Of a DNA stretch of 64,000 nucleotides, positions 2 through 33,143 are shown piece after piece. Under the pieces are notes generated by a model, which was given only the letters and a program-made list of their open reading frames with translations, was not told where the DNA came from and ran no database searches. The position numbers and the translations under genes are program-made. The stretch covers positions 248,001-312,000 of the forward strand of contig NZ_JAQQKV010000003.1 in NCBI RefSeq assembly GCF_028550435.1. Reading direction: 5' to 3'. Every line of letters begins with the position of its first letter. Within the stretch, counting starts at the first letter, position 1. This DNA comes from Asticcacaulis machinosus (GTDB lineage Bacteria > Pseudomonadota > Alphaproteobacteria > Caulobacterales > Caulobacteraceae).

Positions 2-1918
2 TCTGTTAATGCCGCCCTGCAATGGCGAGTTAACGATAATCTTGATTTTGTTCTCGAAGGGTCATACTTTGGTAGTGAGGAAGAGCGCAATTATAACAAC
101 CTGAAAGTCATTGCGCGTGAGTGGAATAACGACGTTTCAGATGTGGTTCTAACGTCTGATGGGCGTATGGTGGAATCTTTAACTGTATCAACTCCGGGGG
201 GGCGTCTCACAGGTGGGCCGCAGTCTGATTATATTGAGGCCGATACAGATAACTACCGTGCCAACTTTGAGACCCATTGGCGTGGTGAGCGTCTAAATAT
301 TAATGCGGCTTTAAGTTATAACGAAAGTGAGTATAATGACTATGCTGTCCTGACCGTTATGCGTCTAGATGGTGTTGATACTGCCCACATTGATTTCAAT
401 TCTTCGGCAGTTTCTGGGCGTGGGCCACTGATAACATTCCCAGGGGTAGATCTGACGGATGCCAGCATCTATCGTATCACTAATTTTACAGATAGACAGG
501 AAAACCTTAAGAGCAACGAACTCGTCGCTGAGACTGATATCAGTTATCGTATTTCTGATGACAAACTGCTGCGCCGCGTTCAGGTCGGGGCCAGATATTC
601 TGACCGGGACACGCGTCGGAATTATGGTTATCGTGATGCCTGGGCGAACACAGGTGGTTGGACCTTTGATCAATTCCCGGCGGGCTCTGTTGTTTCACAT
701 ACGCCCGATGTCAAAGGCTTTGATGGCCCGACATGGCTAAGCCTTTCGTCTTCTGAAATCATGGCTAACATGGACGACGTGCGGGCTTTCTTCCAAGACC
801 CCGCTAACAATGCCGGTATCGGCGGCGGTGGTGTGTCCTGGACCAGTGAGCGTCCGGGAGGGGAAGTTGGGGGTGTCTGGGAATCCAAGGAAGAAACTAC
901 GGCAATATTCGGCCAGCTTTTCTACGCCTTTAATCTCGGAAGCATTCCTGTTGATGGCGTAGCTGGTGTGCGGGTTACCAAGACATCAGGCTATATCAAA
1001 AGTCAGCAAATCAACTTTGATAAAGACTGGAACCGGGTCGTCAAAGACGCCTATGGTGAAAATGATTACATTGATACGCTACCAAGCTTGAATGCAATCA
1101 TGCACTTCACACCGAAACTTCAGTTGCGTTTGGCTTACACATACAATGTTCAGCGTCCTGACTTTATGGCAACGTCATCATGGCGTACCGTTGAGTTGAA
1201 CAATGCTGTTATCTGGGCGGGTAATCCGGATTTGAAGCCTTATCGTCAAACGAGTTATGATGCTTCGCTGGAATATTATTTTGGTCGTGCAGGGCAGCTC
1301 TCGTTAGGGGCCTTCCTGAAAAAGCCGAAGGGCTTTATGTTCTATGATTACTCTTGGGTTGAAGACCCAGAGTTGGTTCGCCCAGAAAACCCGACCGGAC
1401 GTGGCCGACTTTACATGAACCGCAATGCTAGCGACGGCGAATTCTCAGGGCTTGAATTTACAGCGCAGGGTTTCTTTGACTTCCTGCCTGGAAAGTGGAG
1501 CAACTTCGGTGGTAGCCTGAATGCTACTTACATGAATAAGTTTGAGATAACTTATCCTGTTACTGCGGATGGGGCAACGGTGGAGCCAACTGCTGTTGGT
1601 ACTTCTAAGTATACTTATAATGCGACGTTGTATTATGATACGCCACAATTTAGTGCACGTGTCGCTTACAACTACCGTGATGGCTGGCGTGAATCGGTTT
1701 ATTCAGCGTTCCCCGAATATTCTATTTATGCCGATCCTACGTCGCGACTGGATGCCGCCGTCAACTATACGCCGGTCAAATGGCTGACACTTAGCCTTGA
1801 AGGCGCCAATCTGCTGGAAAACGACTACCGCAGCTATTGGGGGGAAAACAAGATACTTGCGAAAAACATTCGTATGATGGCCAAAACCATTCAGTTGAGT
1901 GCACGTTTCCGCTTCTAA
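2..1918 (+). CDS. TonB-dependent receptor, C-terminal part (5' end outside window)
   Basis: Outer-membrane, energy-coupled importer. The frame is open from base 2, so the plug and first barrel strands lie upstream; about 638 residues remain. The visible part has the alternating aromatic strands of a 22-strand beta-barrel, a receptor-like segment (LQLRLAYTYNVQRPDF), and a C-terminus ending in aromatic SARFRF, as expected for an outer-membrane protein recognised by BAM. A halogenase-like gene follows convergently, a pairing common in Caulobacterales and Xanthomonadales glycan loci. The substrate cannot be read from the barrel; the neighbours suggest glycopeptide or oligosaccharide. Base composition is less GC-rich than in the genes from 3700 onwards. 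Confidence 0.93.
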   Translation, partial: SVNAALQWRVNDNLDFVLEGSYFGSEEERNYNNLKVIAREWNNDVSDVVLTSDGRMVESLTVSTPGGRLTGGPQSDYIEADTDNYRANFETHWRGERLNINAALSYNESEYNDYAVLTVMRLDGVDTAHIDFNSSAVSGRGPLITFPGVDLTDASIYRITNFTDRQENLKSNELVAETDISYRISDDKLLRRVQVGARYSDRDTRRNYGYRDAWANTGGWTFDQFPAGSVVSHTPDVKGFDGPTWLSLSSSEIMANMDDVRAFFQDPANNAGIGGGGVSWTSERPGGEVGGVWESKEETTAIFGQLFYAFNLGSIPVDGVAGVRVTKTSGYIKSQQINFDKDWNRVVKDAYGENDYIDTLPSLNAIMHFTPKLQLRLAYTYNVQRPDFMATSSWRTVELNNAVIWAGNPDLKPYRQTSYDASLEYYFGRAGQLSLGAFLKKPKGFMFYDYSWVEDPELVRPENPTGRGRLYMNRNASDGEFSGLEFTAQGFFDFLPGKWSNFGGSLNATYMNKFEITYPVTADGATVEPTAVGTSKYTYNATLYYDTPQFSARVAYNYRDGWRESVYSAFPEYSIYADPTSRLDAAVNYTPVKWLTLSLEGANLLENDYRSYWGENKILAKNIRMMAKTIQLSARFRF

Positions 1919-2020: not shown

Positions 2021-3532
2021 TTAAACGGCAACCCGTTGCGGGGAGGGGCAGGTCTTGGCGAGGTAGCTTTCGTGGCTAGGCATCATGTCGGCTAATCCTG
2101 TACTCCCGTCTCGTATTTTCTGCATTCGCCAGCGGAATTCCTCTTGTGGCATCTCATCGGCAGCTGGGTGATAAGAACGAGGAACTAGCCCTTGTCCAAC
2201 CAAAATGGCAAACCAGCTTGGTTCCGTGAACAATTCAAGTGAGGTGACGCGTGCATCGTTATGATATTGAAACATTTCCAGCCGCATTTTGAGACTGTCC
2301 GGGATGTCCATGTGTTTGCAATAGGCCCAGAACGGCGTGTCTTCCCGTTTCGTGACCTTATAATGGGCGATAAGGAAATCCTTGACATTGTCATAGGCCC
2401 TTAGCATGTCTTGATTGAAGGCAATGCGTATTGATGGTGTAATCTCATCTTTTGGAAAGTATTTTAGAAGCTTGAGAACGGCATGTTGCACCAGGTAGAT
2501 CGAAGTCGACTCCAGCGGTTCCAGGAACCCCGACGACAGGCCCATAGCGATGACATTCTTATTCCACATCTGCTTACGGTGGCCGGTGACAAATCGGATA
2601 ACGCGTGGCTCAGCCTGAGCCTTGCCATCCAGCCGTTGCAGGATCAGCTCACTGGCCTTGGCCTCATCCATATAGGCGTCGCAGAAGACATAACCATTGC
2701 CGGTGCGGTGCTGGAGCGGGATGCGCCATTGCCAGCCGGCTTCCTGCGCGGTCGAGGTCGTGTAGGGCGTGGCGGGCCCGACCTTGTCACACGGCACAGC
2801 GACGGCACGATTGCACGGCAGCCATTGCGACCAGTCCTCATAGCCGCTTTTCAGCGTCTGTTCGATTAGCAGGCCGCGAAAACCGGAACAGTCGATAAAC
2901 AGATCACCGCTGACTGCCTGACCATTAGCCAGTGTCACCGACGTGATATCGCCGGTTTCAGGGTGTTGCGCGACGCTGGTGATCTTGCTTTCCTGACGCA
3001 CCACGCCGTTTTTCTCACAGTATCCGCGCAGGAATTTGGCGTAGAGCGAGGCATCGAAATGAAAGGCGTAATTGACGTTTGGCGCATTGGGGTTGATCTC
3101 GGCCATGCGTCCGAACCGGCCTTTGCGGGCGGCCAGGGTCTGCGGGTTGAACAGGCCGAAATCGCCTGAGCCACCGGCTTTGTGATAGCGCATCCAGAAA
3201 TGATTGAAATTCAGCCCCCCCATATCAACGCCGTACACACCAAACGGGTGGAAATAGTCGCTGCCGGGCGCCGACCAGTTCTGAAAACGGATGCCGAGCT
3301 TGAACGTGCCGTTGACCGCCTTCATAAAGTCGTTTTCGTCGATCCCCAGCAGGGTGTTGAATTCCTGTATCGTCGGGATGGTCGCTTCGCCGACGCCGAC
3401 CGTGCCGATCTCATCGGATTCAATCAGGGTGATCTGATAATTGCGCGTGCCCATGACCCGCGACAAGGCAGAGGCCGCCATCCAGCCAGCGGTGCCGCCA
3501 CCAACGATTACCAGTTTACGAATTTGGGGCAT
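2021..3532 (-). CDS. Flavin-dependent tryptophan halogenase family protein
   Basis: FADH2-dependent halogenase of the PrnA/RebH/BrvH family, 503 residues. Visible: N-terminal GGGTAGW flavin-binding motif (residues 11-17), WQWRIP (the family WxWxIP motif), a Lys in TFKLGIRF (about K78) matching the catalytic lysine, and the Glu in SGFLEPLEST matching the catalytic glutamate. It therefore looks catalytically complete. I chose ATG 3532, which has GAGGA four bases upstream, over a TTG codon 33 bases further up. It is convergent to the TonB receptor gene; such halogenases sit beside receptors in many glycan loci and their physiological substrate is generally unknown. Free tryptophan should not be assumed. 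Confidence 0.9.
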   Translation of the reverse strand: MPQIRKLVIVGGGTAGWMAASALSRVMGTRNYQITLIESDEIGTVGVGEATIPTIQEFNTLLGIDENDFMKAVNGTFKLGIRFQNWSAPGSDYFHPFGVYGVDMGGLNFNHFWMRYHKAGGSGDFGLFNPQTLAARKGRFGRMAEINPNAPNVNYAFHFDASLYAKFLRGYCEKNGVVRQESKITSVAQHPETGDITSVTLANGQAVSGDLFIDCSGFRGLLIEQTLKSGYEDWSQWLPCNRAVAVPCDKVGPATPYTTSTAQEAGWQWRIPLQHRTGNGYVFCDAYMDEAKASELILQRLDGKAQAEPRVIRFVTGHRKQMWNKNVIAMGLSSGFLEPLESTSIYLVQHAVLKLLKYFPKDEITPSIRIAFNQDMLRAYDNVKDFLIAHYKVTKREDTPFWAYCKHMDIPDSLKMRLEMFQYHNDARVTSLELFTEPSWFAILVGQGLVPRSYHPAADEMPQEEFRWRMQKIRDGSTGLADMMPSHESYLAKTCPSPQRVAV

Positions 3533-3608
3533 AGCGTCCTCAGTCTGCGGCCATTTAGAATACAAAAAGACCCTAGGCGACGGGTAAAATTTGTCAATAT
3601 ATCGGTAT

Positions 3609-3622
3609 ATCGTATAAAATAT
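3609..3622 (+). promoter_or_regulatory. Operator-like site 1 (ATCGTATAAAATAT)
   Basis: First of seven matches in the window to ATYGTATAMNNTAT. It lies between the divergent halogenase-like gene (start 3532) and the lectin-like/DPP genes (start 3684). I infer a FadR-type GntR operator; binding is not shown. Confidence 0.55.
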
Positions 3623-4256: not shown

Positions 4257-6554
4257 GTGAAATTCAAATCCTCCCTTTTGGCCTCATCGGTCATGGCCGC
4301 CACGCTTATGGCGACCGGCCTTGCGGTTGCGCCGTTGCAACTGGCCTATGCGCAGGCTCCGGCGACTGCGACCCAGCGCGCTGAGCGTTTCAAGGCGGCC
4401 GAGGCCTATATGCACGGCAATCTGTCGGCTCTGGTGACCGACCTGAATATGCAGGCATCGTTTGCGGGCGGCGGCAGCGGCGTGATCTACCGCAAGGGGC
4501 CGAAGGGGCAGGGGGCGATCCTGCTGGCTGACCCGACCAAGGGCACACAGACCGAACTGACGATGGAAGCGGCCCTGACGCCTAAGCTGAAAGACGCGGG
4601 TGTAAAGGCAGATGGCATCGTCGATGTCCGCCCGACGGACTATGATGCCGATAAGAAGGTGCTGAAATTCGCCGCTGGCGGGCGTGACTGGACCTATGAA
4701 CTGGCTACCGGTAACTTGACCGCCAATGCGCCCTATGTGGCCCCGGACGGGATGGTATCGCCGGATGGCAAATATAAGGTCATCGCCCGCGACTATAATC
4801 TTTATCTGGTTGAGGTCGCCACCAACCGCGAAACGCCGCTGACTTTTGACGGGGGCTACGATCAGCGTTACGGCCAGAACTATCCGCTGTTTGGCGACAT
4901 GGCCGATGCCAATTCCGAAACCCCGAAAATGCGCCTGAGTGTGCAGTGGTCAGAGGATTCGCAACAGATACTGACCTACCGCATGGATCGCAACGGCGCC
5001 TATATCTGGACGGGCGTGCAGCAGAGCCCGCAAGGCAGCCATTTCCCGCGCGCGTTCAACTATGTTTATCCGTCCGCAGGGGCCGCCAATGTGCCGCTGG
5101 TTAAGCCGGTGCTGATTGATCTGAAAGGTAAGGCGACCTACCTTGAGGTGCCCGCGACCGAGCTTCTGTGGCCCGGCGATCCGGCGGTCTACTGGGCCGG
5201 GGATAAGATCGTCTATGAATGGTCAAAGCGCGGCTATGGCGAGATCCTGCTGTACGAAGTCGATCCGGCCACCGCCAAGGCTGTGGTACGGGTGCGTGAG
5301 GCGCTGAAACCGATCGTGACCGTGACCTCCAGCGGTATCCGCCACGCGCCGGAATGGGGCGGTAACTTCGTCATTTCCGAACGCAGTGGCTGGGCGCAGC
5401 TCTATTTCCTCAAGACCGGCGAAAATCCGGAGGGCGGCAAGGCCCTGACAACCGGCGACTGGGAAGTCACGGGCATTGAACGCATCGACAAAGACGATGT
5501 AATCATTGCCGGTATCGGTCGTGAAAAGGGCATTAATCCTTATTATTCATCGCTTTATCGCGTCACCAAAGCGGGTAAAATCACCCACCTGACGCCCGAG
5601 CCGCTGGATCACAGCACGACGATCTCACAGGATGGCAACTGGATCATCGACCGCATGTCCTCACCCACCGATCCGACGCGCACCGTGCTGCGGGACGCGA
5701 AGGACGGCAGGATCGTTGCCGAACTGGGCCGCGCCGATATTTCGGCTTTGCTGGCCACCGGCTTTACCCTGCCGGAGCCGTTTGAGACGGTGGCCGATGA
5801 CGGTAAGACCAGGCTTTACGGCATGATCCATCGCCCGAAGAATTTCGATCCGTCGAAGTCCTATCCGGTCATTGAAAATGTCTATACCGGCCCGACGACC
5901 CACCGCTTTAACGAGGATTACGGCGGCAATATCGTCAATGGTTTGAACGCTATGGCGCAACTGGGGGCGATTGTCGTGACCATCGACGGGCGCGGCACGT
6001 CCCAGCGCGGCAAGGCCTTCCGGTCTTCGGCCTATCAGAATCTGGCCGAGGCAGGTCTTGATGACCACATCTGGGTGCTGAAGGCCATGAAGGCGAAATA
6101 TCCCTATTTCGATCTGAACCGCGTCGGCGTCTATGGCGGCTCGGCCGGTGGTTATGATACGGCGCGCTTTGTCCTGCGCCGGCCGGATGTCTATAAGGTC
6201 GGAGTTGCCTCATCCGGCAATCATGATCAGCGCATCGATAAGGCGTGGTGGCCGGAAGTGTCGATGGGCATTGCCGATGACGCGACCTGGGAAGCCAATT
6301 CCAATATTCCGGTGGCCAAAAACCTCAAGGGCAAGCTGATGCTGATCCACGGCGACATTGATGACAATGTGCCGATTGCCGCGACCATGAAGCTGTCCAA
6401 GGCCCTGATCGATGCCGGTAAGGACCACGAACTGGTCATCCTGCCCAATACCAAGCACAATGTGACCCAGCCCTATTACTTCCAGAAGATGTTCGGGTTT
6501 TTCTATGACAACCTGATCGAACCCAGAGCTGACGATCCGATCGTTCAGAAATAA
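4257..6554 (+). CDS. Secreted dipeptidyl peptidase IV (S9B family)
   Basis: Serine exopeptidase that releases X-Pro (and possibly X-Hyp) dipeptides from N-termini; 765 residues, the usual size. GTG start with GAGAG upstream. Signal peptide about 1-33 (ending QLAYAQA). Residues about 100-530 form the DPP IV beta-propeller region, and the C-terminal alpha/beta-hydrolase carries the nucleophile in YGGSAGGY (S629), the Asp in HGDIDDNVP and the His in NTKHNVT. The nucleophile elbow is GGSAGG rather than the mammalian GWSYGG. It follows the lectin-like gene by 24 bases. In this locus it would trim proline/hydroxyproline-rich peptides in the periplasm. Confidence 0.93.
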   Translation: MKFKSSLLASSVMAATLMATGLAVAPLQLAYAQAPATATQRAERFKAAEAYMHGNLSALVTDLNMQASFAGGGSGVIYRKGPKGQGAILLADPTKGTQTELTMEAALTPKLKDAGVKADGIVDVRPTDYDADKKVLKFAAGGRDWTYELATGNLTANAPYVAPDGMVSPDGKYKVIARDYNLYLVEVATNRETPLTFDGGYDQRYGQNYPLFGDMADANSETPKMRLSVQWSEDSQQILTYRMDRNGAYIWTGVQQSPQGSHFPRAFNYVYPSAGAANVPLVKPVLIDLKGKATYLEVPATELLWPGDPAVYWAGDKIVYEWSKRGYGEILLYEVDPATAKAVVRVREALKPIVTVTSSGIRHAPEWGGNFVISERSGWAQLYFLKTGENPEGGKALTTGDWEVTGIERIDKDDVIIAGIGREKGINPYYSSLYRVTKAGKITHLTPEPLDHSTTISQDGNWIIDRMSSPTDPTRTVLRDAKDGRIVAELGRADISALLATGFTLPEPFETVADDGKTRLYGMIHRPKNFDPSKSYPVIENVYTGPTTHRFNEDYGGNIVNGLNAMAQLGAIVVTIDGRGTSQRGKAFRSSAYQNLAEAGLDDHIWVLKAMKAKYPYFDLNRVGVYGGSAGGYDTARFVLRRPDVYKVGVASSGNHDQRIDKAWWPEVSMGIADDATWEANSNIPVAKNLKGKLMLIHGDIDDNVPIAATMKLSKALIDAGKDHELVILPNTKHNVTQPYYFQKMFGFFYDNLIEPRADDPIVQK

Positions 6555-6608: not shown

Positions 6609-8237
6609 TTATCCTCCCGGATGAAGGCCCGGCGCTTCCTGACCCGTGCGGGCGACATATTCGCTGTAGCCGCCGCCGTACTGGTGGATGCCTTCCGGTG
6701 TCAGTTCCAGCACACGGTTCGACAACGCGCCTAAGAAATGGCGGTCGTGGGACACAAACAACATGGTGCCTTCGAAATCGGCGAGCGCCGCCACCAGCAT
6801 TTCCTTGGTCGCCATATCCAGGTGGTTGGTCGGCTCATCCAGCACCAGCAGATTGGGTGGATCGAACAGCATCTTGGCCATGACCAGCCGCGCTTTTTCG
6901 CCGCCGGACAGGACGCGGCACGGCTTTTCGACATCATCGCCGGAGAAACCAAAACAGCCCGCCAGTGTGCGCAAGGCCCCCTGACCCGCCTGCGGGAAAG
7001 AGCCTTCCAGCGACTCGAAAATCGTCTCTTCGCCGTCGAGCAGGTCCATAGAGTGCTGGGCGAAATAACCCATCTTGACGCTGGCCCCAACGGTGACGGT
7101 GCCCTTATCGGGTGAGGCATCTCCGGCCACCAGTTTCAGCAGGGTGGATTTGCCGGCGCCGTTGGCGCCGAGGATGCACCAGCGTTCTTTGCGCCGCACT
7201 TTGAAATCCAGCCCCGAATAGATGGACAGATCGCCGTAACCTTTGTGGACATCGCGCAGGTTGAGGACGTCATCACCCGACCGCGGAGGGCTGCGGAATT
7301 CAAACTGGACGGTTTGACGGCGCCGTGGGGCTTCGACCCGTTCGATCTTGTCGAGTTTTTTCACCCGGCTTTGCACCTGTGCGGCGTGGGAGGCGCGGGC
7401 CTTAAAGCGCTCAATAAACTTGATTTCCTTGGCCAGCATAGCCTGCTGGCGTTCATACTGTGCCTGCCGCTGGGCTTCGGTCAGGGCGCGCTGCTGGTCG
7501 TAGAAATCAAGATCGCCCGAATAGGTGATCAGCGTGCCGCCGTCGATTTCCACCACCTTATTAATAATCCGGTTCATGAAGGCGCGGTCGTGTGAGGTCA
7601 TCAAAAGCGCGCCGTCGTAATCTTTAAGAAAGGCCTCCAGCCAGATCAGGCTTTCGAGATCAAGGTGGTTGGAGGGTTCATCCAGCAACATGCCGTCGGG
7701 CCGCATCAGCAGGATGCGCGCCAGCGCCACCCGCATCTTCCAGCCGCCGGAGAGTAAGCCCACATCGCCGTCCATGCGTTCCTGACTGAAGCTCAAGCCC
7801 GCCAGCACTTCGCGCGCGCGGGCCTCAACCGAGTAACCGTCCAGTTCCTGAAACCGCTCCAGGACATCGCCATAGCGTGCCATGATGGCATCGAAGGCGT
7901 CGGCCTGATCCGGATCGGCCATAGCGGCCTCCAGGCTTGCCATTTCAGCCGCCAGCGCGCTCACCGGGCCGACACCATCCATTACGGCGGCGACGGCGCT
8001 CTGGCCCGACATTTCGCCCACGTCCTGACTGAAATAGCCGATCTTCATGCCGGTATCGATGGCGACCTGACCGTCATCGGGCTGATCCTGATCGGTGATC
8101 ATACGGAACAGCGTCGATTTGCCCGCCCCATTGGGCCCGACCAGCCCGACCTTTTCGCCCTTCTGGATGCCCATCGACGCATCGATGAACAGGATCTGGT
8201 GGCCGTTTTGCTTACTGATATTATCGAGGCGGATCAT
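6609..8237 (-). CDS. ABC-F family ATPase (Uup/YheS-like)
   Basis: Soluble protein with two ABC nucleotide-binding domains and no membrane segments, 542 residues. Walker A GPNGAGKST (about 34-42) and GANGAGKST in the second half; signature LSGGWKMR and LSGGEKAR; Walker B LLDEPSNHLD and VLDEPTNHLD. A charged linker (about 235-305, rich in Arg, Lys, Gln) is the P-site tRNA interaction motif region of ABC-F proteins, which act on the ribosome. A housekeeping or antibiotic-tolerance role is likely; it has no evident link to the surrounding glycan genes and interrupts the locus. Confidence 0.93.
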   Translation of the reverse strand: MIRLDNISKQNGHQILFIDASMGIQKGEKVGLVGPNGAGKSTLFRMITDQDQPDDGQVAIDTGMKIGYFSQDVGEMSGQSAVAAVMDGVGPVSALAAEMASLEAAMADPDQADAFDAIMARYGDVLERFQELDGYSVEARAREVLAGLSFSQERMDGDVGLLSGGWKMRVALARILLMRPDGMLLDEPSNHLDLESLIWLEAFLKDYDGALLMTSHDRAFMNRIINKVVEIDGGTLITYSGDLDFYDQQRALTEAQRQAQYERQQAMLAKEIKFIERFKARASHAAQVQSRVKKLDKIERVEAPRRRQTVQFEFRSPPRSGDDVLNLRDVHKGYGDLSIYSGLDFKVRRKERWCILGANGAGKSTLLKLVAGDASPDKGTVTVGASVKMGYFAQHSMDLLDGEETIFESLEGSFPQAGQGALRTLAGCFGFSGDDVEKPCRVLSGGEKARLVMAKMLFDPPNLLVLDEPTNHLDMATKEMLVAALADFEGTMLFVSHDRHFLGALSNRVLELTPEGIHQYGGGYSEYVARTGQEAPGLHPGG

Positions 8238-23136: not shown

Positions 23137-23142
23137 AATAGG

Positions 23143-24409: not shown

Positions 24410-26164
24410 TTAGTCTTTACCTTCATAAGGGCTGGTGCCACCACGGGCGATGAACTTATCGACCGCCGTTTCCAGCACCGGCAAAGGCACCGAGCCCAGT
24501 TCCAGCACGGTATCGTGGAAGGCGCGGATGTCAAACTTTTCACCCAAAGCGGCTTCGGCCTTGGCGCGGGCTTTCCATATCGCCATTTCACCAAGGTAGT
24601 AGCTGAGGGCCTGACCCGGCCAGGCGATATAGCGGTCGGTCTCCGTCGTGATTTCGTGCTCACTTAGTGCGGTATTATCGCGCATGAAGGCCATAGTCTG
24701 ATCGCGGGTCCAGCCCTTGGCGTGGATGCCGGTATCAACCACCAGACGGGCGGCGCGCCACATCTGATAGCTCAGCATCCCGAAGTGCTCATAGGGTGTG
24801 TGATACATTCCCATTTCCACACCGAGACGTTCTGCGTACAACGCCCAGCCTTCGCCGTAAGCCGAGATATAGGTGTTCTGGCGGAACTCCGGCAGGCCTT
24901 TGTTTTCCATGGCCAGCGGCATCTGGAAGGCGTGGCCGGGGGCGGATTCGTGCAGGGTCAGTGCGGGCAGGGAATAGAGTGGACGGGCGGGCAGGTTATA
25001 GGTATTGACCCAGTAACCGCCGGGGCCGCCGCGGCCGCCGGTGTAAAAGGGCGCCAGTTCAGGGGCGACGGGGAAAATGCCGAACCTCATCCGCGGTTGA
25101 CGGCCGAAATATTTGCCGGACACCGCATCAAATTCCTTGGCGGTCCAGGCGGCACGATCGAGCAGGTCCTGCGGTTTGGTGACATAAAACTGCGGATCGG
25201 TGCGCAGGAAGTTCAAAAATGCGGACAGGTCGCCCTCAAACTTGACCTCTTTCATGACGGTGAGCATTTCAGCCTTGATCTTGGCCACTTCATCGAGGCC
25301 GATCTGGTGGATTTCCTCCGGTGTCAGATCAAGCGTGGTGTATTCGCGGCTTTGGGCGGCATAAAACGCTTTGCCGTCGGGCAGGTCATAGGCGCCGATT
25401 TTGGCCGTGGCCTTGGGCTCATATTCCTTGGTGATGAAGGTTAGCACCGACTGGTGGGCGGGGATAACGCTCTTATTGATCGCCTCAAGCGCCAGCTTTT
25501 TCAGTTCCGCCTGTTTATCGGCGGGGATGGAGGCGGGCATGGACTTGAAGGGTTTATAGAATGAGTTGTCCTCACCCTTGGCGTTGATCACGGTGGTCAG
25601 GGACACATCACGACCGGCCAGTGCGACCTTAGGCACGGTAAAGCCACGCTTTAAACCTGCGCGCATATTGTCCATGTTCTGGCCAAAATAGCGCGGCATG
25701 TCGTTCAACTGACGCAGATAATTGCGGTAATCGGCCTCGGTGCGATAGGTGCCGCCGGTGATGTAGCTGAGGTCGCTCCAGAAGGAGGTATCCCCCGCCA
25801 GCGGACGCTCATAGGTCTTGAATTTTTGGGCATTATAGAGCGTTTCGATCTGGAAGCGGTAGATCTGGTAATCGACGGCAGCGGCTTCCGACAGCTTGGA
25901 TTTATCGATGGCGTCCAGTTGTTTCAGCACGTTCTGCCAGTAGGTCAGTTTCTTATCCTGAGCGGCTTTTGACACGTCGGGCAGGCCGCCGCCGCGCTGA
26001 TCGGCGGGGATGTCTTCGCTGACTGACATTTGCTCACCGCGCCATTTCCATTCGGTGGTATAGATGTCTTTAAACTGGCTGTCGGTGGCGGGATCGGCAA
26101 ACGAGGTCATGGCACTTAACGACAAAACAGCGGAAACAGCGGTGGCGGCGAACAGGGACTTCAT
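24410..26164 (-). CDS. Secreted DUF885 family protein, putative metallopeptidase
   Basis: 584 residues, signal peptide 1-23 (MTSFA). The DUF885 hallmark HESAPGHAFQ is present in the sequence LTLHESAPGHAFQMPLA, with a distal ELGSVPLPVLE and YLGEMAIWKAR near the C-terminus. The HExxxGH motif resembles zinc-peptidase helices. It is divergent from the GH146 gene over a 108-bp gap holding site 7, and is followed by the HExxH protein in the same operon, so a peptidase pair controlled together with arabinofuranosidases is likely. Confidence 0.88.
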   Translation of the reverse strand: MKSLFAATAVSAVLSLSAMTSFADPATDSQFKDIYTTEWKWRGEQMSVSEDIPADQRGGGLPDVSKAAQDKKLTYWQNVLKQLDAIDKSKLSEAAAVDYQIYRFQIETLYNAQKFKTYERPLAGDTSFWSDLSYITGGTYRTEADYRNYLRQLNDMPRYFGQNMDNMRAGLKRGFTVPKVALAGRDVSLTTVINAKGEDNSFYKPFKSMPASIPADKQAELKKLALEAINKSVIPAHQSVLTFITKEYEPKATAKIGAYDLPDGKAFYAAQSREYTTLDLTPEEIHQIGLDEVAKIKAEMLTVMKEVKFEGDLSAFLNFLRTDPQFYVTKPQDLLDRAAWTAKEFDAVSGKYFGRQPRMRFGIFPVAPELAPFYTGGRGGPGGYWVNTYNLPARPLYSLPALTLHESAPGHAFQMPLAMENKGLPEFRQNTYISAYGEGWALYAERLGVEMGMYHTPYEHFGMLSYQMWRAARLVVDTGIHAKGWTRDQTMAFMRDNTALSEHEITTETDRYIAWPGQALSYYLGEMAIWKARAKAEAALGEKFDIRAFHDTVLELGSVPLPVLETAVDKFIARGGTSPYEGKD

Positions 26165-26208: not shown

Positions 26209-26222
26209 ATTGTATACAGTAT
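26209..26222 (+). promoter_or_regulatory. Operator-like site 7 (ATTGTATACAGTAT)
   Basis: Best GTATAC match, between the divergent DUF885 and GH146 genes. TTGACA lies just upstream (26203-26208). Confidence 0.65.
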
Positions 26223-26272: not shown

Positions 26273-28684
26273 ATGTCCCGACCCGCCCTTATCACCAACC
26301 GCCGCGCCCTTCTGGGTGGGGTGGCTGCAAGCACATTTATCAGTGGCCTGAGCCTGCCGGTCATGGCCGCCACAGCGGTGCCGCTCAAGGCCGCGCCCGT
26401 GCCGATGAAGGATGTGCGGCTGTTGCCATCGCCGTTCCTCAATGCCGTTGAGGTCAACACCAAATATCTCATGAGCCTTGAGCCCGACCGCCTGCTGCAC
26501 AACTACCATAAATTCGCGGGCCTGCCGGTCAAGGGCGAAATCTATGGCGGCTGGGAATCGGACACGATTGCCGGGGAAGCTTTGGGCCATTATCTGTCGG
26601 CCCTGGCGCTGATGTACGCCCAGACGGGCAATGCTGAATGCATCACCCGCATCAATTACATCATTGCCGAGCTGAAAAAGGTGCAGGCCGCTCATGGTGA
26701 CGGTTATGTTGCCGGCTTCATGCGTAAGCGCAAAGACGGCACGGTCGTTGATGGCAAAGAGATTTTCCCCGAAATCATGGCCGGTGATATCCGCTCGGCT
26801 GGTTTCGATCTCAATGGCTGCTGGGTGCCGTTCTATAACTGGCATAAGCTCTATGCCGGTCTGCTCGATGTTCAGGCCCTGACCGGAAACGATGCCGGTA
26901 TTCCGATCCTGGTTGGGCTTGGCGGTTACATTGAAAAGGTGTTTGCTGCCCTGAACGATGAGCAGGTGCAAAAGGTTCTGGCCTGCGAATACGGCGGGAT
27001 CAACGAGAGCTTTGCCGAGCTTTATGTCCGCACCAAGGATGCGCGCTGGCTGGTGCTGGCCGAGCGCATCTATGACAACCGCAATCTTGATCCGCTCAAG
27101 GCCGGTGAGGACAAACTGGCCAACTTCCATGCCAATACTCAGGTACCAAAGTTGGTCGGACTGGCGCGTCTTTATGAAATTACCGGCAAGCCGGAGTATC
27201 AAAAGGCCTCGTCCTTCTTCTGGGAGCGGGTCACCAACCACCATTCGTTTGCTATTGGTGGTAATGCCGACCGTGAATATTTCTTTGAGCCCGATACCAT
27301 TTCGGCCCACATCACTGAGCAGACCTGCGAAAGCTGCAACACCTATAATATGATGAAGCTGACGCGTCATCTCTATAGCTGGTCGCCGCAGGCGTCTTAT
27401 TTTGATTATTATGAGCGGGCGCATCTGAACCACATTCTGGCGCATCAGCACCCTGAGACCGGCATGTTCACCTATATGATGCCGCTGATGTCGGGTACGG
27501 CGCGGGAATATTCGACGCCGTTCGATTCGTTCTGGTGCTGCGTGCTGTCGGGGATTGAGAGCCATTCCAAGCACGGCGATTCCATCTATTGGGAAAGCGG
27601 CGATACGCTGTTTGTGAACCTGTTTATCCCCTCGACCCTGAACTGGGCCACGAAAAAGGCCGAGTTCGAGCTTCTGACCAAGTACCCCTATGAGGGCAAT
27701 ATCGCGCTGAAGCTCAAGCGTGTGCAGGGGGCGAAATCGTTCACCGTCGCTGTGCGTATTCCGGGTTGGGCCAAGTCAAACACCCTGCTGGTCAATGGCA
27801 AGCCGGCGTTGGCCAAGATCGATAAGGGCTATGCCCTGATCACCCGTAAATGGCGCTCCGGCGATGTGGTCACGCTTGATCTGCCGCTCGATCTGCGCTT
27901 TGAAGCCGCTGCGGGTAACGATAAGGTCGTGGCGCTACTGCGCGGGCCGATGGTCATGGCCGCTGACCTGGGCGCGGCACCAAAAGCCGATGAAGATCCG
28001 GAATATAAGGGCGATGCGCCCGCTTTGGTCGGGGCTGACCTGCTGGCGGGTATTGTGCCGGTCTCAGCCTCTGAGGCCATCTATAAAACCAATGGCATTG
28101 GCCGTCCGGGCGACCTGACGTTCAAGCCCTTCTATGCCCAGTATGAACGCCGCAACGCCGTCTATTTCAACCGCTATAACGATGCCGAATGGGCAACGGC
28201 TCAGGTGGCGTTCCGTGAGGAGCAGGCCCGCCTGAAAGACCTCGCCGCGCGGTCGGTTGATGTCATGTATCTGGGGGAAATGCAGCCGGAACGGGATCAT
28301 AACCTGACGACCGGTGGTAACTCATTCCCGGTCGTCTATCGTGGCCGTAAGGGCCGCGATGCCCGCACTATGGGCTTCTTCCAGTTTGACATGAAGGTGA
28401 CCAAAGACGGCAAAGACGCTGGCCCATTGGTGCTGCAGGCGACCTATTGGGGCTCGGAGTTCAACCGCAGCTTCACGATCGAGATCGACGGCACCGTCAT
28501 CGCCCATGAACGCCTGTCGGGTCGTCAGCCGGGTGACTGGATCGACGTCAGCTATCCGATCCCGCATAACCTGACCAAGGGTAAGTCAAAGGTCGTGGTC
28601 AAGTTCAATCCGCAGGAAGGCAAGACCGCTGGCCCTGTGTTTGGCGTGCGTCTGTTTACCACGGCTGCGGCCAAAGCGGTTTAA
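26273..28684 (+). CDS. Secreted GH146/GH127-like beta-L-arabinofuranosidase (DUF1680)
   Basis: 803 residues from ATG 26273 (GAGG upstream). Tat-like signal (NRRALLGG, cleavage near residue 30). The DUF1680 alpha/alpha barrel carries the zinc and catalytic set of HypBA1-type enzymes: E353 and C355 in CESCNTYN, C422 and C423 in FWCCVLSG, C423 or C422 being the nucleophile pair position. The CC...SGIESHSKHG segment is nearer GH146 than GH127. A C-terminal beta domain (about 630-800) follows. First gene of a GH146-GH43-GH127 operon. Expected to release beta-L-arabinofuranose from Hyp-linked or pectic arabinan. Confidence 0.9.
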   Translation: MSRPALITNRRALLGGVAASTFISGLSLPVMAATAVPLKAAPVPMKDVRLLPSPFLNAVEVNTKYLMSLEPDRLLHNYHKFAGLPVKGEIYGGWESDTIAGEALGHYLSALALMYAQTGNAECITRINYIIAELKKVQAAHGDGYVAGFMRKRKDGTVVDGKEIFPEIMAGDIRSAGFDLNGCWVPFYNWHKLYAGLLDVQALTGNDAGIPILVGLGGYIEKVFAALNDEQVQKVLACEYGGINESFAELYVRTKDARWLVLAERIYDNRNLDPLKAGEDKLANFHANTQVPKLVGLARLYEITGKPEYQKASSFFWERVTNHHSFAIGGNADREYFFEPDTISAHITEQTCESCNTYNMMKLTRHLYSWSPQASYFDYYERAHLNHILAHQHPETGMFTYMMPLMSGTAREYSTPFDSFWCCVLSGIESHSKHGDSIYWESGDTLFVNLFIPSTLNWATKKAEFELLTKYPYEGNIALKLKRVQGAKSFTVAVRIPGWAKSNTLLVNGKPALAKIDKGYALITRKWRSGDVVTLDLPLDLRFEAAAGNDKVVALLRGPMVMAADLGAAPKADEDPEYKGDAPALVGADLLAGIVPVSASEAIYKTNGIGRPGDLTFKPFYAQYERRNAVYFNRYNDAEWATAQVAFREEQARLKDLAARSVDVMYLGEMQPERDHNLTTGGNSFPVVYRGRKGRDARTMGFFQFDMKVTKDGKDAGPLVLQATYWGSEFNRSFTIEIDGTVIAHERLSGRQPGDWIDVSYPIPHNLTKGKSKVVVKFNPQEGKTAGPVFGVRLFTTAAAKAV

Positions 28685-28694: not shown

Positions 28695-30281
28695 ATGAAA
28701 CGTTTTGCGGCTTTAAGCCTTTTGCCGTTAATCGCGGCGTGTGCGCCGGTTATCGCCCAAACTCCATTGGAAACCCGTCAGGTTACCGCAACCCATAATC
28801 CGATCCTGTCGGACGGGGCGGATTACACGACCGATCCGGCCCCGTTGGTGGTAGGTGACAAATTCTATGTCCTCACCGGCCGCGATATGGCCGAGCCGGG
28901 CGTCAACGACTTCATCATGCCGGAATGGCAGATGCTGGAAACCTCTGACCCCAAGTCGAGCAAGTGGACCCACTATCCGCATTTCCTGAAACCGGATGAT
29001 GTCTTCAAATGGGCGACGCCGGGCCGCGCCTATGCCGCTCAGATCGTGCAGGGGCCGGATAAGAAGTTCTATCTCTATGCGCCGGTGATGCAGAAGGGCA
29101 CAACCAACAAAGACGGTTTTGCCATTGGTGTAGCCGTCTCGGACAGCCCGACCGGCCCGTGGGTCGATGCCCATCCGAAGGGGCCGGTGGTGTCGCAGTC
29201 CTATCCGGTGGCCAATGACATTCAGAACATCGACCCGACGGTTTTGATCGACGATGATCAGCGGGTTTATCTCTACTGGGGCACGTTCGGCCGCCTTAAA
29301 GGCGTCGAACTCGAAAAAGACATGGTGACCTTTAAGGGCGCGCCCGTCGATGTGAACACCTTAACCGGTTTCTTTGAGGCGCCTTGGATTTTCAAGCGCA
29401 AGGGCATCTATTATATGGCCTATGCCGGCAATAAGGCCGGGCCTGATTCCGAATGTACCGAAGCGGTTTACTATGCCTGTATCGCCTACGGCACCGCCAA
29501 GTCGCCGCTGGGGCCGTGGACCTATCGCGGGGTGATGCTCGATCCGGTATCGTCGACCACCTCGCACCCCGGCATCGTTGAATATAAGGGCGAGTGGTAC
29601 ATCGCCTATCACAATGCCGATGCCAAAAATGGCGGCCATTTCCGTCGTTCGGTCGCGGTGGATAAGGTGACCTGGGACGACACCGTCTCCCCGCCCGCCA
29701 TTGAGGTGGTGGAAACGACCAAGGCTCCGCCGCCGGCGCCCACCCCGACCCGCAATCTGGCCCCTGCCGCCCGCATCGTCGCCTCGAACTCACCCGTGCC
29801 GGTGCAATACTGGATCAGGGCGCTCAATGACGGCAAGGTACGCGAAGCGCCGCTGCCGCCCGACACCTGGGGCACATGGTCGCCCAATAACCCCAAGCAG
29901 CAGTGGGTGGTTTACCAGTGGGAGCAGGCGCTGAAGTTCAATGGCTCACGCATCTACTTCTGGGGTGATCAGCCCGCCGGTTCCGGTATTGGTGTCGCTC
30001 CGCCCAAGGCCTGGCATCTGGAATACTGGTCCGACGCCGACAAAAAATGGACGCCGATTGCCGCCCAGTATCCGGCCGCGACGCTCAACGCCTTTAATGA
30101 CGTGGCGTTTGAGCCGGTGACCACGCGCTGTCTGCGGGCGGTGTTTGACGCCTCGACTGATGGTAAAACCTATGCCGCCGTGGCCGCCCAGGAATGGGAG
30201 GCGCTCTACCCTAGGCCTGTGCTGGTCGAAGCTGCCGACACCAAGCTTGCGGCCTCCGCCACCTGCGTCCCATCTGAATAA
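28695..30281 (+). CDS. GH43 family glycosidase lipoprotein with F5/8C-like C-terminal domain
   Basis: 528 residues, start 28695, ten bases after the GH146 stop. LPLIAACAP near residue 16 is a lipobox, so it is probably membrane-anchored in the periplasm. The five-bladed propeller holds the GH43 triad D47 (TTDPAP), D180 (NIDPTV) and E228 (FFEAPW). Residues about 370-510 (PVQYWIRALNDGK, WVVYQWEQALKFNGSRIYFW) look like a galactose-binding, F5/8 type C domain. Likely alpha-L-arabinofuranosidase or a related activity; the exact linkage is not readable. Confidence 0.88.
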   Translation: MKRFAALSLLPLIAACAPVIAQTPLETRQVTATHNPILSDGADYTTDPAPLVVGDKFYVLTGRDMAEPGVNDFIMPEWQMLETSDPKSSKWTHYPHFLKPDDVFKWATPGRAYAAQIVQGPDKKFYLYAPVMQKGTTNKDGFAIGVAVSDSPTGPWVDAHPKGPVVSQSYPVANDIQNIDPTVLIDDDQRVYLYWGTFGRLKGVELEKDMVTFKGAPVDVNTLTGFFEAPWIFKRKGIYYMAYAGNKAGPDSECTEAVYYACIAYGTAKSPLGPWTYRGVMLDPVSSTTSHPGIVEYKGEWYIAYHNADAKNGGHFRRSVAVDKVTWDDTVSPPAIEVVETTKAPPPAPTPTRNLAPAARIVASNSPVPVQYWIRALNDGKVREAPLPPDTWGTWSPNNPKQQWVVYQWEQALKFNGSRIYFWGDQPAGSGIGVAPPKAWHLEYWSDADKKWTPIAAQYPAATLNAFNDVAFEPVTTRCLRAVFDASTDGKTYAAVAAQEWEALYPRPVLVEAADTKLAASATCVPSE

Positions 30282-30305: not shown

Positions 30306-33143
30306 ATGACCCGCAAATTTACCGCTGAAGCTAATCCTCATCTGTGCCAGCCCGATTGTCGCTGCCTTGACCGGCGCGGGTTTCTGGCCACTGCTGCGGG
30401 GGCATCGGTTGCCGCCGGAATCGGGTTGGGCGCAGGTTTTGCCTTTGCCGACACAACCGTAGTCAATCTGGCTAAGGTCGCCGTTCCCTCGACCTCCTTC
30501 ATGTCGGGCGACGGTAAGCTGACGGCGCTTAATGACGGGGTAGAGCCGCAGAATTCTGCCGACAATGCCGCCACCTCTTATGGTAACTGGCCCAAGACCG
30601 GCACCGAATGGGTGCAGTATGACTGGAGCCAGCCGGTGACCACCAATAAGGTCGATGTCTATTGGTGGATCGACGGGCAGGGCGTGGGCGCGCCAAAATC
30701 GTGCCGCGTGTTATACTGGAACGGTAAGGCCTTTGTGCCGGTGCCCAATACCAAGGGGCTGGGTGTTAAGGCCAATGGCTACAACACCACCACCTTTGAT
30801 GAGATCAAGACCGATAAGCTGCGCCTTGAGATCGTCTCGGACGGAAAGCTGTCGACCGGTGTGCTGGAATGGAAGGTCTATAGCTTTGGCGTCGTCCCAG
30901 CCTTTGCGCCGGCCGTGGTCGCGGGCGTTGACCGCATCGTCATCAGCGGCGGCAAGACCTATCTGATGGGTAAGGCTGATTGGCTCAAGACAGGCCCCCA
31001 GACTGGCAGCCTGTGGCGTAAGGTCTCCGGCCCCGGTCAGGTGACCTTTGCCGATGCCCTGACGCCTGATACGACTGCGACCTTTTCTGAGAACGGCGAC
31101 TATGTGCTGGAACTGGCCGGTCATGACGGCAATCTCATCACGACCTCGCGCCTTAGGGTCCGGGTTCAGGCCGCGCCGCCGAAAGAGCGTCTGGATGTGG
31201 TCTATACCCGTCGCTACAGCCTCGACAGCCCGCTGTGGAATGCCCGCGCCAAGTCTTTGATCGTCAACTGGATTCCGCATTGCATCGACTATTGTGAGCG
31301 TACCGATCTGCCGACGGGGCAGGGCGGTATCGACAACTTCTTTGAGGCGGCCAAGGCCAATCGCGGCGAACCGCACGGCCCGCATAAGGGGCTGGTGTTC
31401 TCGAATGCCTGGGTACTGCAAACGGTCGAGGCTATCTGTATCGCTCTGATGGTTGACCCGCAGGGCGACGCCGACATGATTAAGGCGCAAGCCCACATGA
31501 AGGCGACACTGGATAAATGGATACCGCCAATTCTCGCCGCGCAGGAATCCGATGGCTATCTGCAAACGGCCAAGACTCTGGCCGCGCCCGGCGCGTGGGA
31601 TAAGCGTTGGGACCCGGCCCATCGCGCCGACCACGAAGGCTATATTGCCGGTTACTTTATTGAGTCGGCCATCAACCACTACACCCTGACCAATGGGCAG
31701 GACGTGCGGCTCTATAACGGCGCCAAGAAACTGGCCGATTGCTGGGTTGCCAATGTCGGCCCGGGCAAGATCGAATGGTTCGACGGCCATCAGGAGATGG
31801 AGCAGGCGCTGGTGCGCTTTGGTCGCTTCGTCAATGACATGGAAGGCGGCGGGCGTGGCGATGCCTATATCGATCTGGCGCGCTTCCTGCTCGAATCGCG
31901 CAAAGGCGGTCATGAATATGACCAGAGCCACCTGCCGCCCGAAAAGCAGTATGAGGCCGTTGGCCACGCCGTCCGTGCCGTCTATTCTTATTCCGCTATG
32001 GCCGATATCGCGGCGGAAACCGGCGATATTGAATACCAAAGTGCTGTCATGTCGTTGTGGGATAACATCGTCAACCGCAAATACTATGTCACCGGCGGCA
32101 TCGGCTCAGGCGAAACTGCCGAAGGCTTTGGCGCGGACTATTCTTTGCGCAACAATGCCTATTGTGAGTCCTGTTCATCGGCAGGGGAGATATTCTTCCA
32201 GTATAAGCTCAACCTGGCCTATCATGACGCCAAATACGCCGACCTCTATGAGCAGACCATGTATAACGCTTTGCTGGGCGGCACGGATCTTAACGGCACC
32301 AGCTTTGGCTACACCAACCCGCTGATCAACAGTGAGCGCACCCTGTGGCACGTCTGTCCATGCTGCGTCGGCAATATTCCGCGCACGCTTCTGATGGTGC
32401 CGACCTGGACTTATGTGAAAGACAAGACGGGCATCTACGTCAATATGTTCGTCGGCTCAAAGATCGTGGTCGACCGCGTCGCCGGCACCGACGTTGAGAT
32501 GGTGCAAAAGACTGAGTATCCTTGGAAGGGCGCGGTCTCAATCATCGTCAATCCCAAAGAAACCAAGACCTTCACGGTCTATGTGCGCATCCCGAATCGC
32601 AAGACCAGCGATCTCTACACCCTGACCCCGGCGGTCAGCGGCGTGAAGTCGTTTAAGGTCAACGGTAAGGTCGTCACCCCTACCATCGAAAAAGGCTATG
32701 CCGTCGTCACGCGCGAATGGAAAGCCGGTGACCGCATTGAGCTTGACCTGCCGCTGGCGCCACAACGGATTCATGCCGATGAGCGCATTGAGGCGGACCG
32801 TGGGCGCGTCGCTCTGGCCTATGGGCCCTTGGTCTACAATGTCGAAAAAGCCGATCAGCCGAATATCGAGCAGGCTTTGAGCAAGGCACCTATTAAGGCC
32901 GAATGGCGCGGCGATCTGCTGGGCGGGGTCATGGCCCTCACCGGTAAGTGGCAGGACGGGTCACCGATGCTGGCCATCCCGAACTATGCCCGTATGAATC
33001 GCGTCGGTGAGGCGGCGGCGATCGGTAGCGGCGATGTCGACTTCGCACCGGGGGCGACCACGCCGGTGGCGCAGGCACCGGTCGGGCCGCGGGTGCGGGT
33101 GACGGGGCTACAGTCTCAGGTCTGGATTCGCGACAAGGTGTAA
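30306..33143 (+). CDS. Secreted GH127 beta-L-arabinofuranosidase with N-terminal accessory domains
   Basis: 945 residues, 24 bases after the GH43 gene. Tat signal CLDRRGFLATAAG (twin Arg at about 23-24). Residues about 50-200 are an F5/8C-like domain (WVQYDWSQPVTTNKVDVYWW, similar to that of the GH43 protein), about 205-290 an Ig-like domain, and about 295-945 the DUF1680 catalytic part. Catalytic/zinc set: E621 and C623 in CESCSSAGE, C686 and C687 in CPCCVGN. The CPCC form is the GH127 signature. Third gene of the operon; its HypBA1 relatives cleave beta-L-Araf from hydroxyproline-linked oligosaccharides. Confidence 0.92.
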   Translation: MTRKFTAEANPHLCQPDCRCLDRRGFLATAAGASVAAGIGLGAGFAFADTTVVNLAKVAVPSTSFMSGDGKLTALNDGVEPQNSADNAATSYGNWPKTGTEWVQYDWSQPVTTNKVDVYWWIDGQGVGAPKSCRVLYWNGKAFVPVPNTKGLGVKANGYNTTTFDEIKTDKLRLEIVSDGKLSTGVLEWKVYSFGVVPAFAPAVVAGVDRIVISGGKTYLMGKADWLKTGPQTGSLWRKVSGPGQVTFADALTPDTTATFSENGDYVLELAGHDGNLITTSRLRVRVQAAPPKERLDVVYTRRYSLDSPLWNARAKSLIVNWIPHCIDYCERTDLPTGQGGIDNFFEAAKANRGEPHGPHKGLVFSNAWVLQTVEAICIALMVDPQGDADMIKAQAHMKATLDKWIPPILAAQESDGYLQTAKTLAAPGAWDKRWDPAHRADHEGYIAGYFIESAINHYTLTNGQDVRLYNGAKKLADCWVANVGPGKIEWFDGHQEMEQALVRFGRFVNDMEGGGRGDAYIDLARFLLESRKGGHEYDQSHLPPEKQYEAVGHAVRAVYSYSAMADIAAETGDIEYQSAVMSLWDNIVNRKYYVTGGIGSGETAEGFGADYSLRNNAYCESCSSAGEIFFQYKLNLAYHDAKYADLYEQTMYNALLGGTDLNGTSFGYTNPLINSERTLWHVCPCCVGNIPRTLLMVPTWTYVKDKTGIYVNMFVGSKIVVDRVAGTDVEMVQKTEYPWKGAVSIIVNPKETKTFTVYVRIPNRKTSDLYTLTPAVSGVKSFKVNGKVVTPTIEKGYAVVTREWKAGDRIELDLPLAPQRIHADERIEADRGRVALAYGPLVYNVEKADQPNIEQALSKAPIKAEWRGDLLGGVMALTGKWQDGSPMLAIPNYARMNRVGEAAAIGSGDVDFAPGATTPVAQAPVGPRVRVTGLQSQVWIRDKV

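Follow-up and report, generated by a model that had tools for sequence, protein, structure and literature searches.

A candidate HypR-type regulon joining glycosidases, peptidases and hydroxyproline catabolism in Asticcacaulis machinosus

The window analysed here is a stretch of 64,000 nucleotides (C3:248001-312000) of the 3.77-Mb genome of Asticcacaulis machinosus. Its first part holds a block of genes for candidate glycosidases, peptidases and hydroxyproline (Hyp) catabolism, which ends at recA and which, together with a palindromic operator found at many of its promoters, is the subject of this work. An original prediction, made from the letters alone, had proposed that these enzymes act jointly on extensin. 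Pfam and NCBIfam profile searches of the window proteins found the gene classes it had named at about the predicted coordinates. The genes of the block are as follows (whole-window coordinates; GH, glycoside hydrolase family).

2-1918, plus strand: TonB-dependent receptor, 3' part, gene start upstream of the window (PF00593; TIGR01782 294.8 bits, below the cut-off of 310)
2021-3565, minus strand: tryptophan-halogenase-family protein (PF04820, E 8e-186)
4257-6554, plus strand: DPP IV / S9 peptidase, N terminus hydrophobic, predicted exported (PF00326, PF00930)
6609-8237: ABC-F gene
8349-9851, minus strand: GH27 candidate alpha-galactosidase (PF16499; best solved relative alpha-galactosidase 1uas, E 3e-100)
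about 9937-11934, plus strand: GH97 candidate retaining alpha-galactosidase (PF10566; 3a24, E 1e-106)
12176-14947, plus strand: DUF5695 protein, candidate glycan-active enzyme (PF18951, 1242 bits)
15097-16503, plus strand: APC-family amino acid permease (PF13520)
16647-17285, minus strand: GntR/FCD regulator 1, GntR1 (PF00392, PF07729)
17681-18337, minus strand: GntR/FCD regulator 2, GntR2, candidate HypR (PF00392, PF07729)
18487-19506, minus strand: 4-hydroxyproline epimerase HypE (NF010578 513.8 bits, cut-off 376)
19722-20636, minus strand: DHDPS-family protein, candidate 1-pyrroline-4-hydroxy-2-carboxylate (Pyr4H2C) deaminase (PF00701; below the dapA cut-off; adjoins HypE in most loci)
20721-21947, plus strand: DAO-family protein, candidate D-hydroxyproline oxidase/dehydrogenase (PF01266; adjoins HypE in most loci)
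21958-23136, plus strand: M24 peptidase, candidate Xaa-Pro/Hyp dipeptidase (PF00557, PF01321)
23526-24407, minus strand: HExxH protein, candidate exported metallopeptidase (no Pfam match)
24410-26164, minus strand: DUF885 protein, candidate exported peptidase (PF05960, 532 bits)
26273-28684, plus strand: GH146-like candidate beta-L-arabinofuranosidase, Tat-like signal (PF07944 413 bits; 5opj E 2e-138; also placed by tree)
28695-30281, plus strand: GH43 candidate alpha-L-arabinofuranosidase (PF04616; closest solved relative 4nov, E 7e-47)
30306-33143, plus strand: GH127 candidate beta-L-arabinofuranosidase, Tat-like signal (PF07944, PF20736, PF20737; 6ex6 E 2e-94, 3wkw 9e-53)

The three-step start of Hyp catabolism that had been read from the block is present, with HypE, DHDPS-family and DAO-family genes all found in the window; Cys89 and Cys259 of HypE are invariant in 14 of 14 aligned sequences, the window's included. 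The window lacks a gene for the fourth step, alpha-ketoglutarate-semialdehyde dehydrogenase. An unlinked candidate was found at C2:898944-900311; it is one of nine aldehyde dehydrogenase places in the genome and the closest of the nine to the dehydrogenase of another Hyp locus, L146 (49% identity; the others reach at most 40%). Its best NCBIfam model is alpha-ketoglutarate-semialdehyde dehydrogenase (490 bits, below the cut-off of 770), which is the best model in only one of four aldehyde dehydrogenases tested, and relatives of it are encoded in the Hyp loci L037, L095, L146, L124 and L081 (48-58% identity) and L082 (37%). From family and neighbourhood, the DHDPS, DAO and dehydrogenase genes are candidates for hypD, hypO and hypH, respectively.

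Pfam cannot tell GH127 from GH146, and the two are split here by their nearest solved relatives, 5opj being taken by us as GH146. The GH146-like protein aligns with 5opj at ESCNTYNM and WCCV, keeping the Cys and Glu motifs, and the GH127 protein aligns at YCESC and CxCC with 6ex6, 4qjy and 3wre (closest to 6ex6, then 4qjy, then 3wre/3wkw); residues in these motifs presumably act as catalytic Cys and zinc ligands. The GH127 protein also has an F5/8-type domain match slightly under its cut-off. The GH97 protein is closest to the retaining alpha-galactosidase 3a24 and retains the Asp that is replaced in chain 5e1q. By a simple check of hydrophobicity and RR motif, the N termini of the DPP IV, GH27, GH97, GH43, HExxH and DUF885 proteins are Sec-like and those of GH146 and GH127 Tat-like. 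In the HExxH protein, the HExxH pattern and YWAEG are invariant in four sequences, one of them from Pedobacter; its model (pLDDT, the predicted local distance difference test, 63) has no Foldseek match at E 0.001 or better, and we therefore claim no fold. As to uptake, the transporters recognised in the block are the TonB receptor and the APC permease. No SusD family is among its Pfam hits, so that no SusC/SusD pair was recognised, and no ABC importer was recognised by Pfam, the sole ABC protein of the block being of the soluble ABC-F type.

A common site was first noticed in intergenic stretches of the block and in the promoter of the GH146 and TonB genes just upstream. This palindromic operator, ATATCGTATACGATAT, stands at promoters of the Hyp genes, of the DUF885/GH146 and GH27/GH97 pairs and of a GntR gene, and recurs both at a second GH146 locus and before the unlinked dehydrogenase candidate. 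Its core, TNGTATACNNTAT, has four exact copies in the window, at the promoters of GH27/GH97, GntR2, DHDPS/DAO and DUF885/GH146. Scores below are from a position weight matrix (PWM) built only from 18 DHDPS/DAO sites of other genomes, the consensus of which is again ATATCGTATACGATAT.

9884-9896, plus strand: exact core, divergent promoter of GH27 and GH97 (PWM 17.7)
18415-18427, minus strand: exact core before GntR2 (no PWM score of 8 or more)
20670-20682, minus strand: exact core, divergent promoter of DHDPS and DAO (PWM 24.7)
26210-26222, plus strand: exact core, divergent promoter of DUF885 and GH146 (PWM 9.5)
3610-3622, plus strand: operator-like site with one mismatch, between the tryptophan-halogenase gene and the open reading frame at 3684 (PWM 18.6)
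11956-11968, plus strand: operator-like site with one mismatch, before DUF5695 (PWM 14.2)
17344-17356, minus strand: operator-like site with one mismatch, before GntR1 (PWM 10.7)
L007:19097, outside the window: operator-like site upstream of the TonB receptor gene (PWM 18.6)

Genome-wide there are 10 exact cores in 3.77 Mb, 8 of them at two GH146 loci. Those outside the window lie at C3:246816 (GH146), C1:1649623, 1656403 and 1661590, C2:870100 and C4:229654. The three C1 cores, which were not used in motif finding, precede the DUF885, GH146 and TonB receptor genes of the second locus, where another DUF885 gene and DPP IV, GH2, GH39 and GH88 genes are also found; its three promoters score 18.4, 18.1 and 17.0, and that of the unlinked C2 dehydrogenase 24.2. 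Scores of at least 14 occur 12 times in 323 kb of own sequence, compared with a mean of 1.0 and a maximum of 3 in 20 random sequences, and sites without an evident link score 14.2 (47364), 12.7 (L064:7051) and 12.6 (L009:17837). With one mismatch allowed, the core pattern is at background genome-wide (66 matches, exact ones included, vs. 82 for the reversed pattern), so that we place weight only on exact cores and matrix scores. A generic GntR palindrome was also tried and rejected: 6 of 100 shuffles did as well, a result at chance level. Two further places with the exact core are noted in their own right. A third locus on C4 (L216:7652, about C4:229654; PWM 23.9) has genes for GH2, an EamA transporter, an aminotransferase, an APC permease, an S10 carboxypeptidase and an amidohydrolase, and at C2:870100 (L215:8101) the core precedes a gene without Pfam match that adjoins an M23 peptidase gene.

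In the block, the following units carry an exact or near site at the start: TonB receptor, tryptophan-halogenase-like gene, 3684-DPP IV, GH27, GH97, DUF5695, GntR1, GntR2, DHDPS-HypE, DAO-M24, DUF885-HExxH and GH146-GH43-GH127. Gaps of 2-215 bp suggest that co-directional neighbours are co-transcribed, and HypE, without a site of its own, is probably read through from DHDPS. The APC permease gene likewise has no site of its own and lies 149 bp behind DUF5695. The ABC-F gene has no operator-like site at its own start, and may not belong to the system.

The operator recurs in relatives. A count over 124 loci (2.45 Mb; 14 of the 124 fetched for GH146 near HypE, and the near-copies L066, L075, L090 and L113 of 128 omitted) gives 135 exact cores, whereas 200 column-shuffled patterns gave a mean of 2.4 and a maximum of 17, and 124 of the 135 lie at -300 to +60 of a cluster gene start. 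Scores of at least 10 precede GH146 in 21 of 42 hits, DUF5695 in 16 of 24, GH97 in 5 of 6, GH27 in 6 of 17, DPP IV in 6 of 18, TonB receptor in 10 of 28, M24 in 9 of 76 and GntR genes in 23 of 82, a site shared by a divergent pair being counted for both genes; the background is 3.5% of 2480 random windows. At GH146 promoters, such scores are found in 13 of 17 cases in named loci (missing in Niveispirillum/Azospirillum L078 and L079 and in Pedobacter) and in 3 of 4 elsewhere, in loci selected for adjacency. The exact core is found in 0 of 16 fetched loci of an unlinked GH146 group described below. It is also found in 0 of 9 HypE loci of f70, a family outside the window's class, and in 0 of 13 Bacteroidota loci, so that another regulator must serve in f70 and Pedobacter.

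The company of HypE and GH127/146 genes is itself recurrent, and conservation of glycosidase and Hyp genes together, on which the original prediction had been staked, was found across Alphaproteobacteria, in outside families and in Pedobacter. Within the window's family (149 genomes, own included), full-length proline-racemase-family genes occur in 34 genomes, 28 of which also have GH127/146; in 19 of these 28 HypE and GH127/146 lie at most 25 kb apart, compared with 1.1 expected for random places, and three of the nine misses are near contig ends. A GntR2 homologue is present in 31 of the 34 HypE loci. Among 397 genomes across the phylum, 21 (own excluded) have both genes, and at least 5 have them within 25 kb against 0.42 expected, with G299 and G441 counted as not near; both expectations for random places ignore shared descent.

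In f70 (117 genomes), GH146-type genes at E 1e-100 or better are present in 17 genomes, 16 of them with HypE, and lie at most 16 kb from it in 14 of the 16; a second, weaker GH127-type paralogue, serving as control, shares a genome with HypE in 12 cases and is near it in none. Eight f70 loci have HypE, DHDPS, dehydrogenase, DUF885, APC and GH146 genes in 8 of 8, oxidase genes in 7, M24 in 5 and GH27 in 2. Their genes are co-directional in 7 of 8; L176 is the exception, its glycosidase half being turned towards the Hyp half. In the non-alphaproteobacterial loci L147, L149 and L153 (G237, G524, G373) HypE is only 33-35% identical to the window's, which points to another HypE branch with similar company. 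A scan of named genomes with 14 HypE query sequences, taking the best 80 of 584 places, found GH127/146 on the HypE flank in Sphingomonas, Novosphingobium, Sphingobium, Altericroceibacterium, Microvirga, Caulobacter, Niveispirillum/Azospirillum, Nitrospirillum, Parvularcula, Amphiplicatus and Pedobacter. GH127/146 was found in 10 of 13 Bacteroidota genomes. The Pedobacter loci L131 and L139 have it close to HypE, as does L134 provided that its contig numbers match; in the other genomes the two lie apart, so far as contigs can be paired up.

For gene associations we used 96 loci with full flanks (23 of 119 lacked them; four near-copies are among the 96). Within 9 kb of HypE these have GH127/146 in 29 cases, DUF885 in 46, DUF5695 in 19, GH43 in 15, GH27 in 12, M24 in 61, APC in 43 and DPP IV in 14. 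GH146 associates with DUF885 (Fisher 6e-7), DUF5695 (1e-4), APC (6e-4) and GH43 (2e-3), with p values of 1e-6, 2e-4, 3e-4 and 4e-3, respectively, in the 92 loci that are left without the near-copies; no significant association was found in the 96 loci with GH27, M24, DPP IV or dehydrogenase. Mapped onto a 119-row HypE tree, in which 100 rows are labelled, the presence of GH127/146 within 9 kb has to change state 21 times, in part only because of the 9-kb cut.

GH127/146 genes occur at six places in the genome of A. machinosus, one of them (C3:245484) directly upstream of the window. In a 56-protein GH146 tree, a branch with SH-like approximate likelihood-ratio test (SH-aLRT) support of 99 sets apart 30 of the 33 proteins from HypE loci, together with 5 others, and the label of HypE linkage needs 5 changes on this tree compared with 18.1 when shuffled. 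The tree omits hits with fewer than 350 aligned residues, frames shorter than 550 aa and the loci L001 and L005-L011. Sixteen unlinked GH146 paralogues form a separate group; the 20 unlinked paralogues were hand-picked from the family and phylum lists, and L004, counted as unlinked, is about 20 kb from HypE. The three near-HypE rows outside the clade (two Pedobacter, one f70) have long, unsure branches. Of the own GH146 proteins, C3:245484 and C1:1655047 fall in the HypE clade and C3:163747 in the unlinked group, the latter encoded beside two proteins with alpha-L-arabinofuranosidase C-terminal domains.

We consider it quite probable that this block forms the central part of a Hyp-responsive, HypR-type GntR/FCD regulon for harvesting Hyp-rich glycoproteins of plants or algae, among which extensin fits best. 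Extensins rank among the main glycoproteins for structure and defence in plant walls, and extensin is preferred here because it combines Hyp-linked arabinofuranose with Ser-linked alpha-galactose. From the computed gene families, recurrent clustering and shared operator we infer substrates, export, the identity of the regulator and induction by Hyp along the following lines. Exported GH43, GH146 and GH127 would take alpha- and beta-L-arabinofuranose off Hyp, and exported GH27 and GH97 would take alpha-galactose off Ser; exported DPP IV, DUF885 and HExxH proteins would cleave the bared protein chain, and the TonB receptor and APC permease would let small products in. M24 would release Hyp from dipeptides, and HypE, the oxidase, the deaminase and the unlinked dehydrogenase would convert Hyp to alpha-ketoglutarate. 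A HypR-type repressor, either of the two GntR proteins, would be lifted by Hyp. As regards joint action on extensin, as originally predicted, the joint part is strengthened by the recurrent clustering and by the operator shared in Alphaproteobacteria, and the substrate (extensin as against arabinogalactan protein or an algal glycoprotein) remains presumptive. We lean, with less assurance, towards a wider claim, namely that this is a widespread, repeatedly assembled system in which HypR, a regulator tied to an amino acid and not a sugar sensor, controls deglycosylation, proteolysis and Hyp catabolism. It would include the DUF5695 protein as a candidate new glycan-active enzyme, the HExxH protein as a candidate new metallopeptidase, and satellite loci that respond to Hyp while lacking Hyp genes.

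Several observations weigh against this. GH127/146 is not within 9 kb of HypE in 67 of the 96 loci, and pair tests on the HypE tree, which allow for phylogeny, give no significant link of GH146 with DUF885 (median p 0.125), DUF5695 (0.45), GH27 (1) or GH43 (1). The GH146 promoter of the window scores only 9.5 by the foreign-genome matrix, though its core is exact, and in the window's family 5 of 11 GH146 promoters score at least 10, with five more, the window's included, at 9.5-9.8. Few own sites at that threshold are seen for GH43 (1 of 16), APC (1 of 58) and HypE (5 of 128), with DUF885 at 14 of 62. The operator does not explain the f70 and Pedobacter lineages, in which GH146 promoters score at least 10 in 0 of 10 hits of nine f70 loci and in 0 of 2 Pedobacter loci. 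In addition, GH146 and GH43 enzymes act also on other glycans.

The same regulon logic would hold if the main substrate were arabinogalactan protein or another Hyp glycoprotein in place of extensin, which we think rather unlikely, though it is the strongest of the alternatives. The DUF5695 gene recurs near HypE, Pedobacter included, and the model of its product is nearest to BACCELL_00875, a lyase acting on gum arabic; the model is poor (pLDDT 58), and the resemblance is one of low confidence. GH2 genes would also suit arabinogalactan protein; they are present in the two further operator-bearing loci of the genome, the second and the third, and next to HypE in L146. No galactanase-like family is among the Pfam hits of the block, however, and its two candidate alpha-galactosidases fit the Ser-Gal of extensin.

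Less probable by a wide step is a role of the glycosidases on pectic arabinan or other wall glycans, next to Hyp genes that are independent of them and serve free Hyp. The GH146 and GH43 families include arabinan-active enzymes, and the 67 HypE loci without nearby GH127/146 could be read in this way, as could the existence of the unlinked GH146 clade with its own member beside the two arabinofuranosidase C-terminal-domain proteins. The clustering, on the other hand, recurs in separate lineages, and the operator is common to Hyp and GH146 promoters, with no exact core in the 16 fetched loci of the unlinked clade. Animal collagen, which is not known to carry beta-L-arabinofuranose, is rejected as the substrate and is very hard to credit, since Pfam recognised no collagenase family in the block. 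Collagen has been proposed for HypR regulons with collagenases, which are found in those of Shewanella (PMC5343134) and Streptomyces (PMC6608401). Chance neighbourhood in a glycosidase-rich genome, with its six GH127/146 places, is the least credible of all and is rejected on the clustering counts (19 observed vs. 1.1 expected in the family, at least 5 vs. 0.42 across the phylum, and none of 12 genomes for the second f70 paralogue), the HypE-tree changes, the exact cores and the matrix scores.

A HypR-type regulon for Hyp-rich glycoproteins, the reading that we prefer, resembles what is in print in several ways. Collagenases and proline peptidases are described as members of proteobacterial HypR regulons, joined in some Alteromonadales by a TonB receptor (PMC5343134), and Streptomyces coelicolor HypR represses a collagenase gene (PMC6608401). 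Shared with the block are a GntR regulator (FCD in Streptomyces), the hypE/hypO/hypD/hypH core, upstream secreted peptidases and, in some taxa, TonB receptor and proline peptidases. GntR/FCD genes also stand next to the hyp genes in the window, and the operator covers DHDPS/DAO (24.7) and the unlinked dehydrogenase (24.2), as in HypR control of the core enzymes. The core GTATAC has GT and AC two bases apart, matching the spacing of HypR and FadR-subfamily sites; for HypR this spacing is given in PMC4494728. The published HypR regulon is autoregulated (PMC5343134, PMC6608401); here an exact core precedes GntR2, without a PWM score of 8 or more. The polymer-degrading members are collagenases in the published passages, whereas here they are arabinofuranosidases and alpha-galactosidases.

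Enzymes of GH127, GH43 and GH121 acting on Hyp-arabinosides are known from Bifidobacterium and Xanthomonas (PMC6085000). The XeHypBA1/XeHypBA2/XeHypAA system of Xanthomonas euvesicatoria has GH43 and GH127-type enzymes for Hyp-linked arabinosides, and a prolyl oligopeptidase gene, reported as broken, adjoins XeHypAA; the system includes GH121 and is regulated by HrpX, and the passages on it name no Hyp catabolism genes (PMC6085000). HypBA1/HypBA2/HypAA of Bifidobacterium longum similarly include a GH127 beta-L-arabinofuranosidase acting on Hyp-linked chains (PMC7263609, PMC6085000); as far as these passages tell, an ABC transporter and GH121 are present there and arabinose is used, whereas the window block has a TonB receptor, peptidases and Hyp catabolism. 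Finally, a Latescibacteria genome reconstruction proposed in silico that GH127 and peptidases serve extensin-type glycoproteins, with no locus, Hyp epimerase pathway or regulator in the passages concerned (PMC4454575).

The original remark that no description of such a joint system was known needs qualifying, given the HypR-collagenase regulons and the Xanthomonas Hyp-arabinoside enzymes in print; it stands in that no paper recognisable as joining Hyp catabolism with these glycosidases was found in open-licence PubMed Central. Nowhere does the main text of PMC5343134 use the stem 'glycos'; its supplement or the RegPrecise tables may already list such members. The best reading is that a HypR regulon has been turned to glycosylated plant protein, HypR regulons and Hyp-arabinoside glycosidases each being known separately.

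If this is true, Hyp would be the signal for a carbohydrate-degrading programme. Little is known of bacterial use of whole extensin, sugar and protein together. The system is directly testable, with one operator, one candidate inducer and a defined enzyme set in genera such as Asticcacaulis, Caulobacter and Sphingomonas, and has a counterpart with different regulation in f70 and Pedobacter. It also offers a lead on what two uncharacterised families, DUF5695 and the HExxH protein, act on.

Some minor observations were made in and around the block. Before GntR1, between the two regulator genes (17286-17680), lies a GC-rich direct repeat with units around GCCACCGCCCGGCGAGGGCTGAACAAGCCGCC. Between the M24 and HExxH genes (23137-23525), a short plus-strand frame resembles, by eye, a ribbon-helix-helix antitoxin and is preceded by an inverted repeat, likewise seen by eye. 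A SASA-type carbohydrate esterase gene (38203-40221) lies outside the block, past recA, alanyl-tRNA synthetase and TrcR genes. Behind the upstream GH146 gene (L007:13737-16453) are genes for a DUF6055 protein and a Pfam-less protein with a Tat-like start. Beside the Hyp loci of two genomes of the window's family (L041:12309-18236, L043:1018-7683) there are very long related frames of up to 2221 aa.

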